A stretch of 64,000 nucleotides of DNA. Source: Desulfoferula mesophila. Its GTDB lineage: Bacteria > Desulfobacterota > Desulfarculia > Desulfarculales > Desulfarculaceae. Below are positions 1,184 to 48,724 of this stretch, piece after piece. A program made the position numbers and the translations under genes. Position 1 is the stretch's first letter. Every line of letters begins with the position of its first letter. The notes beneath the pieces were generated by a model, which saw nothing but the letters and a program-made list of their open reading frames with translations, did not search any database and was not told the DNA's origin. The stretch is from NCBI RefSeq assembly GCF_037076455.1, contig NZ_AP028679.1, positions 449,501 through 513,500 of the forward strand, written 5' to 3'.

Positions 1184-1306
1184 CCGGCTTCGCCAGGCGG
1201 CGGCATACTGCGTTACCGGCAACGCTCCAGCCTCGGCGTAGTGCCCAGCTACGCCTCCGGCTGTCGCTCGCCGGATGCCTTGTCTGCCGCCCCCTGGCTG
1301 TGCCGG
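1184..1306 (+). repeat. Palindromic intergenic element, copy A
   Basis: This is a 123-bp imperfect palindrome beginning 5 nt after the ruvB stop. The left arm starts CCGGCTTCGCCAGG and the right arm ends CCCTGGCTGTGCCGG. They pair except for a symmetric TTC/TGT internal loop. The apical stem is GGCGTAG (1235-1241) with CTACGCC (1249-1255). Five related copies lie elsewhere in the window, all with the same polarity. It sits between two genes read on the same strand, so it could act as a 3' end structure for ruvB. Confidence 0.85.
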
Positions 1307-15277: not shown

Positions 15278-15491
15278 CGGCTTCGCCAGGAAGCGCCATG
15301 CTGCGCCCACGGCATCGCTTAGACCTCGGCGTATTGGCAATACGCCTGCGGTCTGCGCTCGCCCGGCGTGCCTCCGGTGGCAAAGCGGGTCGGGCAGGCT
15401 GCTGCCTCCACCAAAGGTTGTGGCTCCCGTTGACACGCTTTGGCAGCCCAAGCCTTGGGACGCCTGGCCTGACCCTCCCTGGCTGTGCCGG
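15278..15491 (+). repeat. Palindromic intergenic element, copy B (with internal insertion)
   Basis: The left arm is CGGCTTCGCCAGG, the apical stem is GGCGTAT (15328-15334) with ATACGCC (15340-15346), and the right arm ends CCCTGGCTGTGCCGG. It is about 90 bp longer than the other copies. The extra sequence, about 15378-15465, lies in the 3' half and has its own weak inverted repeats, such as CAAAGCG (15381-15387) with CGCTTTG (15436-15442). The polarity is the same as the other copies. Confidence 0.8.
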
Positions 15492-28433: not shown

Positions 28434-31022
28434 ATGGAGATCAACCAGAAGCTTGTGGAGATCGTGGGGGAGGAGAACGTAGTCACCAACCCGGCCGACT
28501 GCCAGGCCTACAGCCGGGACATGTCGGTGCACATGGCCCCGCCCCAGGTGATGGTATTCGCCGAGACCACCGAGCAGGTGAGCGCCATCCTGGCCGCCTG
28601 TAACGAGGCCGGGGTGCCGGTGATCGCCCGGGGCGGCGGCACCAGCGTGACCGGCGCGGCCCTGGCCCCCAAGGGCGGGGTGCTCTTGAACCTCATCCGC
28701 ATGAACAAGATCCTGGAGATCAACCTGCCCGACCACTACGCCAGGGTGCAGTGCGGCGTGGTCTGCGGGGCGCTTAACGCGGCGGTGGCCGAAAAGGGCT
28801 TCTTCTTCCCGCCCGATCCGGGCAGCGCGGGCATCGCCACCATCGGCGGCATGATCAACACCAACGCCAGCGGCATCCGGGCGGTGAAGTACGGCACCAC
28901 CAAGGATTACGTCATGGCGCTCAAGGTGGTGCTGGCCGACGGGCGCGTTCTGGACACCGGGTCCAAGGCGCCCAAGACTTCCAGCGGCTACAACCTGTCC
29001 CAGCTCTTCTGCGCCTCGGAGGGCACCCTGGGGGTGATCACCGAGGCTACCATGAAGATCCTGCCCGCTCCGGCCTACGCCATCAGCGCCCGCCTGGAGT
29101 TCCCGGACATCCAGACCGCCGGCGACGCGGTGACCGAGATGCTCACCTCCGGGGTGCCCATCGCCACCTGCGAGATTTTGGACAACGTGTCCATCGCGGT
29201 GTTGGCCAAGGCCATCGACCTCAAGGTGGCCGAGGGCGTGGGCTGCATGATCATGCTGGAGTTGGACGGCCACCGCGCGGCGGTGGAGGACTACGTCAAG
29301 CAGGTAGACGACATCGCGGGCAAGCACAGCCTGATCGGCGCCAAGTGGACCGACGACCCGGTGGAAAAGGCCCCCCTGTGGGAGGCCCGCCACCGCCTGG
29401 TGCCGGCCATGAGCCGCCTCAAGCCCGGCTATCGCCTGGTGCCTTTGATGGAAGACTTCGGGGTGCCCATGACCAAGATCCCCGAGACCATCCGCCAGAT
29501 CCAGGCCATCGGTGAAAAGCACGGCTTCCCCATCGCCACCTTCGGCCACATCGGCGACGGCAACCTGCACGCCACCTTCATCATGGACGTGAAAAAGTCC
29601 GACGAGTGGGAGGCGGTCAAGAAGATCGTCTTGGAGTTCGTGGAGCTCACCGCGGCCATGGAAGGCACCATGAGCGCCGAGCACGGCCTGGGCATGGCCA
29701 AAGCCCCGGTGATCGTCAAGGAGCTGGGGGCCACCGGCCTGGAGGTGATGCAGACCATCAAGGACGCCATGGACCCCAAGGGGGTGCTCAACCCCGGCAA
29801 GCTGGGCCTGAGGGGCTCCATCGAGGATGTCTACGACACCAGCGGCTTCGAACCCCTGCGCCTGCAAACGGGCGAGGTCAACACCTTCGGCGAGGTGGAC
29901 AACGAGATCGTGGCCTGCATCCAGTGCGGCTTCTGCCGCCTGGGCTGCCCCACCTACGCCCAGACCGACCTGGAGTCCATGAACGCCAAGGGGCGCATCA
30001 CCCTGGCCTTCAGCCTGCTGGCCGGGCACATGCAGCCCTCGGTGGAGATGGCAGACCGTTTGTACAAGTGCATGCTCTGCCTGAACTGCAAATACACCTG
30101 CCCGGCCCAGATCAACCTGGCCGCCGTGGTGCAGGCCGCCCGCAAGCGCCTGGTGGAAACCGGCTACCTGCCCGAGATATTCGTCAAGCTCATGAGCGAC
30201 ATGGTGGAGGCGGGCAACCCCTTCAGCATGCCCCGCGACACCCGCACCGACTCCTACCCCGTGGGCTATGAGCCCAAGCCGGGCGCCGACACCCTGCTGC
30301 ACCTGGGCTGCGTGGCCTCTTACCAGGACGTGAAGATCATCCCCGCGGTGATGAAGATCCTGGACGCGGCGGGTATAGAGTTCACTACCCTGGGCAAGGA
30401 AGAAAACTGCTGCGGCTACCTGGCCTATTTGGTGGGGGACATGGAAACCTTCCACACCGTGGCCGCGGCCAATGACAAGATTTTCAAGGAGCAGGGGGTG
30501 AACACCCTGCTCACCACCTGCGCGGGCTGCTACAAGACCTTCGAGGACGTCTATCCCCACCAGGGCCACGGCGACGGCTACAAGCCCGAGCACGTGGTGT
30601 TCCTGCTGGAAAGGCTCATCAACGAGGGCAAGCTGAGCTTCGAGCCCGACGGCAAGCCCATGAAGGCCATCTACCACGACCCCTGCGACCTGGGCCGCCA
30701 CCTGGGGGTGTACGAACCGCCCCGCGAGGTGATCAAGGCCCTGCCGGGGGTGGAGCTCTTGGAGTTCCCCCAGAACCGCACCCTGGCCAAGTGCTGCGGC
30801 GGCGGCGGCGGGGTCAAGGCCTTTGCCAACGAGTTGGGCGGCGACATCGCCTTCGAGCGCATCAAGGTGGCCATCGCCCAGGGAGCGGACACCGTGGTCA
30901 GCGCCTGTCCCTCCTGCAAGAACTCCCTGAACCAGGCTGCGGCCCGGGCCCGCAAGGAAAAGCTGGGCAAGATAAAGGTGATGGACATCACCGAGCTGGT
31001 GGCTTCGCGCCTGGCCAAATAG
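28434..31022 (+). CDS. Fused GlcD-GlcF-type FAD/Fe-S 2-hydroxyacid (lactate/glycolate) dehydrogenase
   Basis: An 862-residue fusion. Residues about 35-215 form the PCMH-type FAD domain (PVIARGGGTSVTGAALAPKGG), followed by the FAD-oxidase C-terminal domain to about 460 (HIGDGNLHATF). Two [4Fe-4S] motifs lie near 495-556 (CIQCGFCRLGCP and CMLCLNCKYTCP). Two CCG domains end the protein (ENCCGY near 657, KCCGGGGG near 786, each with a later CxxC), as in GlpC/HdrD. Such fusions oxidise D-lactate, glycolate or another 2-hydroxyacid. The CCG half resembles HdrB, and the gene follows the Hdr/lipoyl operon, so it may feed electrons to it. Confidence 0.9.
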   Translation: MEINQKLVEIVGEENVVTNPADCQAYSRDMSVHMAPPQVMVFAETTEQVSAILAACNEAGVPVIARGGGTSVTGAALAPKGGVLLNLIRMNKILEINLPDHYARVQCGVVCGALNAAVAEKGFFFPPDPGSAGIATIGGMINTNASGIRAVKYGTTKDYVMALKVVLADGRVLDTGSKAPKTSSGYNLSQLFCASEGTLGVITEATMKILPAPAYAISARLEFPDIQTAGDAVTEMLTSGVPIATCEILDNVSIAVLAKAIDLKVAEGVGCMIMLELDGHRAAVEDYVKQVDDIAGKHSLIGAKWTDDPVEKAPLWEARHRLVPAMSRLKPGYRLVPLMEDFGVPMTKIPETIRQIQAIGEKHGFPIATFGHIGDGNLHATFIMDVKKSDEWEAVKKIVLEFVELTAAMEGTMSAEHGLGMAKAPVIVKELGATGLEVMQTIKDAMDPKGVLNPGKLGLRGSIEDVYDTSGFEPLRLQTGEVNTFGEVDNEIVACIQCGFCRLGCPTYAQTDLESMNAKGRITLAFSLLAGHMQPSVEMADRLYKCMLCLNCKYTCPAQINLAAVVQAARKRLVETGYLPEIFVKLMSDMVEAGNPFSMPRDTRTDSYPVGYEPKPGADTLLHLGCVASYQDVKIIPAVMKILDAAGIEFTTLGKEENCCGYLAYLVGDMETFHTVAAANDKIFKEQGVNTLLTTCAGCYKTFEDVYPHQGHGDGYKPEHVVFLLERLINEGKLSFEPDGKPMKAIYHDPCDLGRHLGVYEPPREVIKALPGVELLEFPQNRTLAKCCGGGGGVKAFANELGGDIAFERIKVAIAQGADTVVSACPSCKNSLNQAAARARKEKLGKIKVMDITELVASRLAK

Positions 31023-31110: not shown

Positions 31111-31162
31111 CCGGCTTCGCCAGGCGGCGCCATGCTGCGTTGCGGGCGTCGCTCGACTCCCC
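31111..31162 (+). repeat. Palindromic intergenic element, copy C (left half only)
   Basis: It begins CCGGCTTCGCCAGGCGGC and continues with CTGCGTTGCGGGCGTCGCT, as in copies A and E, then diverges before the apical stem. No right arm follows within 200 bp. It is therefore a truncated copy. It lies downstream of the GlcD-GlcF terminator, with the same polarity as the others. The remaining gap to 31347 shows nothing else I can name. Confidence 0.75.
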
Positions 31163-38055: not shown

Positions 38056-40428
<2,373 letters not shown>

Positions 40429-40548
40429 CGGCTTCGCCAGCCACCGCATGGCGGCGTTGTCAACTTCGCTCGGTCCTCGGGGTAGGTTTGGCTACCCCTG
40501 CGTTCCTCGCTCGTTTCCGCCTTGCCCTGCGGCGGCTGGCTGTGCCGC
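40429..40548 (+). repeat. Palindromic intergenic element, copy D
   Basis: It starts at the base after the topA stop. The left arm is CGGCTTCGCCAGCC and the right arm GGCTGGCTGTGCCG, so the change from AGG to AGCC on the left is matched by GGCT on the right. The apical stem is GGGGTAG (40479-40485) with CTACCCC (40492-40498). The topA and SBP genes converge here, but the polarity still follows topA. Confidence 0.85.
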
Positions 40549-40587: not shown

Positions 40588-40619
40588 AAGAAAAGCCCCG
40601 CCCGAAACCGGGCGGGGCT
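40588..40619 (-). terminator. Rho-independent terminator of the solute-binding protein gene
   Basis: An 11-bp perfect stem (40594-40604 with 40609-40619) with AAAC loop, followed on the minus strand by TTTTCTT. It lies 24 nt after the stop at 40643. Confidence 0.9.
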
Positions 40620-40642
40620 CGCTATTTAAGCTGGTCGCGGGG

Positions 40643-48471: not shown

Positions 48472-48594
48472 CGGCTTCGCCAGGCGGCACCAGGCTGCGT
48501 TGCGGGCGGCGCTCGCCTCCTCGGCGTATTGGCATATACGCCTGCGGGTCTCGCTGGCCCGGCGCCTTGCCTGGCATCCCCTGGCTGTGCCGCT
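48472..48594 (+). repeat. Palindromic intergenic element, copy E
   Basis: It starts 1 nt after the stop of the 1539-residue gene. The left arm is CGGCTTCGCCAGGCGGC, the apical stem GGCGTAT (48523-48529) with ATACGCC (48536-48542), and the right arm CCCCTGGCTGTGCCG. It is the first of a tandem pair with copy F, 8 nt apart. Confidence 0.88.
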
Positions 48595-48602
48595 GGGGGG
48601 AG

Positions 48603-48724
48603 CGGCTTCGCCAGGTGGCCGATAGCTGCGTTGCCGGCTTAGCTCAAGGCTCGATGTAGGCTCTGCTACATCCGCGCCATTCGCTGGCCGGACGCCTTGC
48701 TCTCGCCCGCCTAGCTGTGCCGCT
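48603..48724 (+). repeat. Palindromic intergenic element, copy F
   Basis: The left arm is CGGCTTCGCCAGGTGG and the right arm CCGCCTAGCTGTGCCG. The apical stem is GATGTAG (48653-48659) with CTACATC (48666-48672), so all changes relative to copy E are compensated across the stem. It directly follows copy E in the same orientation, between convergent genes. Confidence 0.85.

Follow-up and report, generated by a model that had tools for sequence, protein, structure and literature searches.

Palindromic elements abutting stop codons in Desulfoferula mesophila: occupancy varies among sister species and orientation follows both the gene and the replication fork

Directly behind the topA stop codon of Desulfoferula mesophila (790-aa CDS at 38056..40428, + strand; stop TGA at 40426-40428) a full palindromic element occupies positions 40429..40547 of the + strand, 0 nt after the stop, and the locus raises the question of whether such an element belongs to the 3' end of the gene or is a mobile sequence that came to rest there. 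Five further copies, all on the + strand, lie in the window, by which we mean the whole 64,000-nt stretch of DNA that was analyzed: a full element at 1185..1305 past the ruvB stop (1178), an element with a ~90 nt internal insertion at 15278..15490 past the stop of a CPBP gene (15273), a truncated 5' half-copy (copy C) at 31112..31160, which is 89 nt past a stop at 31022, and a doublet of full elements at 48472..48592 and 48603..48722 past the stop of a 1539-aa gene (48470). A first-pass annotation had placed the TTC arm first in one common direction, and the + strand indeed carries every one of the six CGGCTTCGCCAG arms of the window. Its spacings of 4, 0, and 1 nt for the CPBP gene, topA, and the 1539-aa gene are correct, but that for ruvB is 6 nt rather than 5, and copy C is not the sole distant copy, as the annotation had it, because the second member of the doublet, behind the first, is 132 nt past its stop. 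In the 15278 element the palindrome is split by a ~65 nt sequence, GGGTCG...GCTCCCGTTGA...GCCCAAG (window 15387-15460), which recurs near palindromes in sister genomes (also L110, L326, and L232) and is a nested second repeat.

The element is an imperfect palindrome of ~120 nt whose conserved core, CTGCGTTG–TACGCC–CGCCTTGC, is asymmetric, and the alignment gives it terminal inverted repeats made up of CGGC/GCCG ends and inner arms. Its pairing is maintained to a degree that none of 500 shuffles equaled: 93% of the cells are paired, 27 of the 35 pairs have changed on both sides, and sliding the pairing partners abolishes the covariation. A compensatory change (C13-G107 to G-C) separates the topA copy of this genome from that of the sister genome G007. 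Half-changes to G-U (97) and to A-C (93) are about equal overall, so that there is no clear sense-RNA signature, although the middle stems favor G-U and the outer stems A-C. Hairpin-templated repair could be an alternative source of such covariation. No Rfam family matched in the window at the gathering score, and none matched nearby with lax settings.

In the 4.48 Mb genome from which the window comes (G000, a label that we also use for its copies), a covariance model, built after a consensus from 22 copies, found at least 105 copies once the best 150 candidates had been scored and opposite-strand duplicates removed, a search that may have missed faint copies. All copies were mapped with their flanks, and the surrounding genes were predicted with a codon-usage gene finder. 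With tandem copies grouped and one copy inside a predicted gene left out, 104 copies form 87 clusters, of which 55 occupy convergent gaps, 1 a divergent gap, and the others tandem gaps, 21 as sense and 10 as antisense clusters. A co-oriented gene lies upstream of 76 of the 87 clusters (sense clusters), and the median distance of these past the stop is 5 nt, with 51 within 10 nt, 65 within 15 nt, and 73 within 30 nt. The enrichment within 10 nt of stops that the first-pass annotation had proposed to look for genome-wide is thus present, as uniform placement in the same gaps predicts 7.8 clusters at that distance (maximum 19 in 20000 draws). In a convergent gap there is a co-oriented gene 5' of an element in any orientation, which makes polarity alone uninformative there and leaves the spacing as the informative quantity; the distance between the 5' (TTC) arm and its stop is shorter than that between the other arm and the opposite stop in 54 of the 55 (p ~3e-15). 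The annotation's view that random insertion would not yield such spacing and polarity is therefore fully upheld. The single polarity that it expected describes most clusters but has 11 exceptions, and in the tandem gaps alone (21 sense versus 10 antisense, p = 0.07) gene-relative polarity is not absolute. Within the peak, spacing is scattered across 0-15 nt with no one fixed target, and the flank composition reveals no short, invariant target motif on the 5' side of the element. Along the chromosome, 73 of the 105 copies lie in the origin-proximal half (p 8e-5), the covariance search found none between 1.92 and 2.45 Mb, and at L088 4501-4895 (G000:C1:3616033-3616427) two full copies face each other as an inverted pair ~160 nt apart.

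The element is mobile, as orthologous stops in sister species are either empty or carry another subfamily. The topA stop is empty in G001, G002, G003, and G010, is followed by one common subfamily in G000, G006, and G007, and is adjoined by a different subfamily in G004 and G005, the latter also retaining a remnant of the older copy behind it. A GC-rich hairpin, AAAGCCCCGCCCGAAACCGGGCGGGGCT, that lies 3' of the topA element in the window (40591..40621, + strand) has its match 18 nt past the topA stop at the empty site of G001. At the stop of the 1539-aa gene, G001 carries an unrelated subfamily and G006 lacks the copy, and at five further genes (a-e) the presence of a copy varies as well. The protein ends are usually unaffected: the TopA C-terminus is the same in filled and empty close orthologues, and those of genes a-e agree within a few residues among members of the genus. 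As the C-termini are unchanged whether the site is filled or empty, the stop predates the insertion, and new copies settle in the first nucleotides after stops with the TTC arm on the stop side and usually leave the protein unaltered.

This order of events bears on whether the element might be a double-strand-transposing MITE that carries a stop trinucleotide, TAG/TAA or TGA, at the ends of its terminal inverted repeats and thereby restores any stop in or at which it inserts. Such ends do exist: those of the G150 elements read TA[AG]CAGG...CCTG[CT]TA, a widespread variant starts with TGACGGCTTCG, and in G000 five copies, one of them sense, are enclosed by a larger composite bounded by the inverted repeats TAGCCCGCATATTTCATGA...TCATGAAATATGCGGGCTA (also written TAGCCCGCATATTTCATGA...GCGGGCTA), whose right-end CTA (= TAG) serves in four of the five as the opposite gene's stop codon. 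These four comprise three antisense exceptions and the sense copy at 1822994, so at least three of the antisense exceptions adjoin a stop as well, by way of their other end. TGA is also rarer at element-adjacent stops (6/72) than at those of other genes with at least 100 nt after them (49/187; p = 0.001). The simple G000 copies, however, end in CGGC/GCCG at variable spacing from stops that were already there and have neither a TA nor any other duplication, and we consider insertion by stop regeneration unlikely. Exact repeats of 2-5 nt at the flanks are no commoner than in shuffled pairs, a loose 3-nt flank repeat reaches p = 0.047 uncorrected, and palindromic extension of the flanks is not significant past 1-2 nt.

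What is new here is that orientation tracks the replication fork besides the gene. With dnaA at 317 and the terminus set at 2.2 Mb, 75 of the 87 clusters point with the fork (p 3e-12), against a baseline of 356 co-directional genes out of 656 in the sampled regions of G000. The convergent gaps always offer one gene of each kind, and in 47 of the 55 it is the fork-co-directional gene that is abutted (p 8e-8). In tandem gaps, co-directional operons carry 19 sense and 2 antisense clusters, and head-on operons show the reverse, with 9 antisense against 2 sense. Ten of the 12 counter-fork copies are nonetheless sense after a stop, and gene and fork polarity are hence separate constraints. Orientation thus follows both fork travel and gene, and stem pairing is kept while the sequence diverges. 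It should be noted that the fork effect in G000 is not general across the other genomes tested: in G150 the bias past the gene bias is marginal (54/69, p = 0.054; convergent 12/15, p = 0.035), in G211 it is accounted for by gene bias, and in G174 and G087, in both of which the origin position is uncertain, no bias past the gene bias was found.

Fork polarity, the preference for convergent gaps, and the overall strand symmetry of the wobble counts would all suit a DNA-level architectural site, for gyrase, a nucleoid protein, or fork/transcription conflict, selected at the 3' ends of fork-co-directional genes. We regard this as very unlikely in view of the fast turnover among sister species and the patchy occurrence in the phylum, and no bound protein is known. 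The first-pass annotation favored a role at the 3' end, and the corresponding reading is that of a functional 3'-UTR RNA, acting in termination, 3' decay, RNase processing, or on the terminating ribosome, with selection holding sense copies within ~15 nt of stops. The 65 sense clusters within 15 nt lie at the distance at which, according to a passage in PMC12306157 that cites earlier work, E. coli REPs affect translation (<16 nt from the stop, not otherwise). The compensatory pairing and the excess of G-U over A-C in the middle stems are also in line with an RNA, as are the fewer terminator-like sites downstream of element genes (14/67 versus 36/83 at other convergent ends, p = 0.005). The data are therefore compatible with a 3'-end role, but such a role does not predict the fork choice in convergent gaps, and it fits poorly with copies missing at the same gene in sister species, with G211 copies inside tight operons, with the equality of G-U and A-C overall, and with the elements themselves, none of 68 of which resembles an intrinsic terminator (a GC hairpin followed by a T-run). 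We consider it a possible but not a probable account of the placement. Polarity relative to genes can thus go together with a signature of replication, which is a reason not to infer 3'-UTR function from where an element sits.

We now put forward a hypothetical mechanism, to which we would give an even chance, in which the element is a non-autonomous, mobile REP/MITE-like palindrome that is inserted in trans by a putative fork-linked, probably single-strand, enzyme and is kept where it abuts stops. The putative enzyme would transfer the hairpin in single-stranded form to the lagging-strand template, to which it might alternatively be guided by the sliding clamp. In fork-co-directional genes this template is the coding strand (in the right replichore, the + strand), and a single strand inserted TTC-first into it would give exactly the paired polarities observed. 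Purifying selection would then remove copies from genes and promoters, leaving those that abut stops. Selection on gaps alone would predict a broader peak than the one at 0-15 nt, and we speculate in addition that the coding strand is perhaps exposed just behind terminating ribosomes. Once settled, the hairpin would open the 3' UTR, with a possible or even probable effect on translation termination or mRNA 3'-end decay. Targeted or filtered insertion of this kind fits the data better than either option of the first-pass annotation, random insertion or function. Counted against the fork-linked mechanism are the spread of spacings over 0-15 nt, the weak or missing fork bias elsewhere, and the origin-proximal enrichment (73/105), whereas IS608 reportedly prefers termination sites (PMC5371812); a further point is the distribution of Y1_Tnp, discussed below. 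If the mechanism is true, gene ends serve as the safe harbor of a cross-phylum palindromic family with two independent polarities, the spread and 3'-end siting of REP-like repeats become directly testable, and one can look for a natural insertion system that acts close to stop codons.

A fork-linked mechanism is in line with the literature. An orientation tied to replication is reported to mark single-strand transposition of IS200/IS605, whose orientation recapitulates the direction of replication, as well as clamp-guided transposases, other IS families having a clamp-linked orientation bias (PMC5371812). The elements described here share with IS200/IS605 imperfect hairpins, the expectation of no duplication, and an orientation that tracks replication (PMC5371812), but they have no internal or linked tnpA and no fixed target motif. 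A classical REP spread by a RAYT (Y1 HUH) transposase would likewise be palindromic, extragenic, stop-proximal, and multi-copy. Y1_Tnp (PF01797), however, is absent from the copy-rich genomes G000, G001, G004, G007, and G010 and present in copy-free ones, flank composition gives no conserved GTAG/GGAG-type tetranucleotide beside the hairpin, and the element is 120 nt long, so that we hold spread by a RAYT to be highly improbable. For G000 it is contradicted, as PF01797 does not track the copies, and Y1_Tnp is excluded as a general partner enzyme. In the broad sense, as a multi-copy extragenic imperfect palindrome, the element does resemble a REP, and it shares with the stop-proximal subset of E. 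coli REPs a structured palindrome less than 16 nt from a stop. Of the E. coli REPs in RepRanger, ~11% fall into this 15-nt range (PMC12306157), compared with 65 of 76 sense clusters here, and E. coli REPs differ further in being shorter and in the RAYT and the strong fork polarity, the former lacking and the latter present here. ERIC, a palindromic intergenic repeat of ~127 bp, can alter mRNA decay when a copy lies at a 3' end (PMC10969869), and by analogy with ERIC and the E. coli REPs an effect on translation or decay is plausible. Similar length and an intergenic palindromic character are shared with ERIC, and terminal inverted repeats and presence/absence polymorphism at orthologous sites with MITEs, but typical MITEs have a fixed TIR and direct repeats whereas simple copies here lack duplications and in G211 many have a private outermost stem. 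Integron attC sites are imperfect palindromes of similar length that directly follow a stop, are oriented with the gene, and recombine as single strands. The copies described here are dispersed instead of lying in cassette arrays, and the attC R'/R'' boxes (GTTRRRY / RYYYAAC) are absent from the aligned element ends, which are CGGC/GCCG.

Members of the family were probably seen earlier. Passages of a 2009 paper on G. metallireducens describe 24 "predicted short RNA elements", intergenic and multi-copy, with the central palindrome GRCGTAG...CTACGCC, and report them also from other Geobacter and from Desulfotalea (PMC2700814). As these have the same central palindrome, they probably belong to the same family, a comparison made by the central consensus only. 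Those passages mention neither stop codons nor fork polarity nor mobility (PMC2700814), the literature searched contained no report of stop abutment combined with fork polarity, and a literature search by sequence motif returned nothing relevant.

The element is patchy but widespread. Of 296 genomes of the phylum, 117 contain it according to a wider model, and matches to the core pattern, among those listed, come from Desulfobacterota, Nitrospirota, Methylomirabilota, Gemmatimonadetes, Myxococcales, and others. In other lineages it is ~125-150 nt long, and across loci from other genomes and phyla sense upstream stops are most frequent 22-34 nt ahead of the core, which is the foot of the outer arm. 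A position next to stops is also seen in distant genera. Seventeen of the 18 copies in G211 are sense, most lying -6 to +2 nt from the stop, and many (L301-L316) have a private, self-complementary outermost stem that starts right after the stop codon. In G150, 38 of 69 copies are sense, 27 of these lying within -13 to +11 nt of the stop, and the right end of the antisense copies is often at a fixed 26 nt from the stop of the other gene. A bolder proposal, which we consider doubtful, is that the machinery which inserts this widespread mobile hairpin recognizes where translated genes end at their 3' side, so that insertion is directed to stop codons genome-wide and polarized by the fork, as a "safe-site" strategy; what is sensed might, for example, be the single-stranded coding strand behind a terminating ribosome at a passing fork.

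Two other repeated sequences were noticed. A second REP-like repeat, GTAGGTTGGGT(T/A)GAGCG...CCCAAC, sits 3' of many palindromes (e.g. L048 near 4775 and L051 near 4760), on the same strand as the palindrome in 22 of 25 cases and fork-aligned in 27 of 34. An ORF of 263-268 aa that partially matches a DnaA-like ATPase is present on G000:C1 in about two dozen copies (e.g. at 245710, 376212, and 2036444), and these copies, which fall into three identical-score groups, are probably the helper ATPase of a high-copy insertion sequence.
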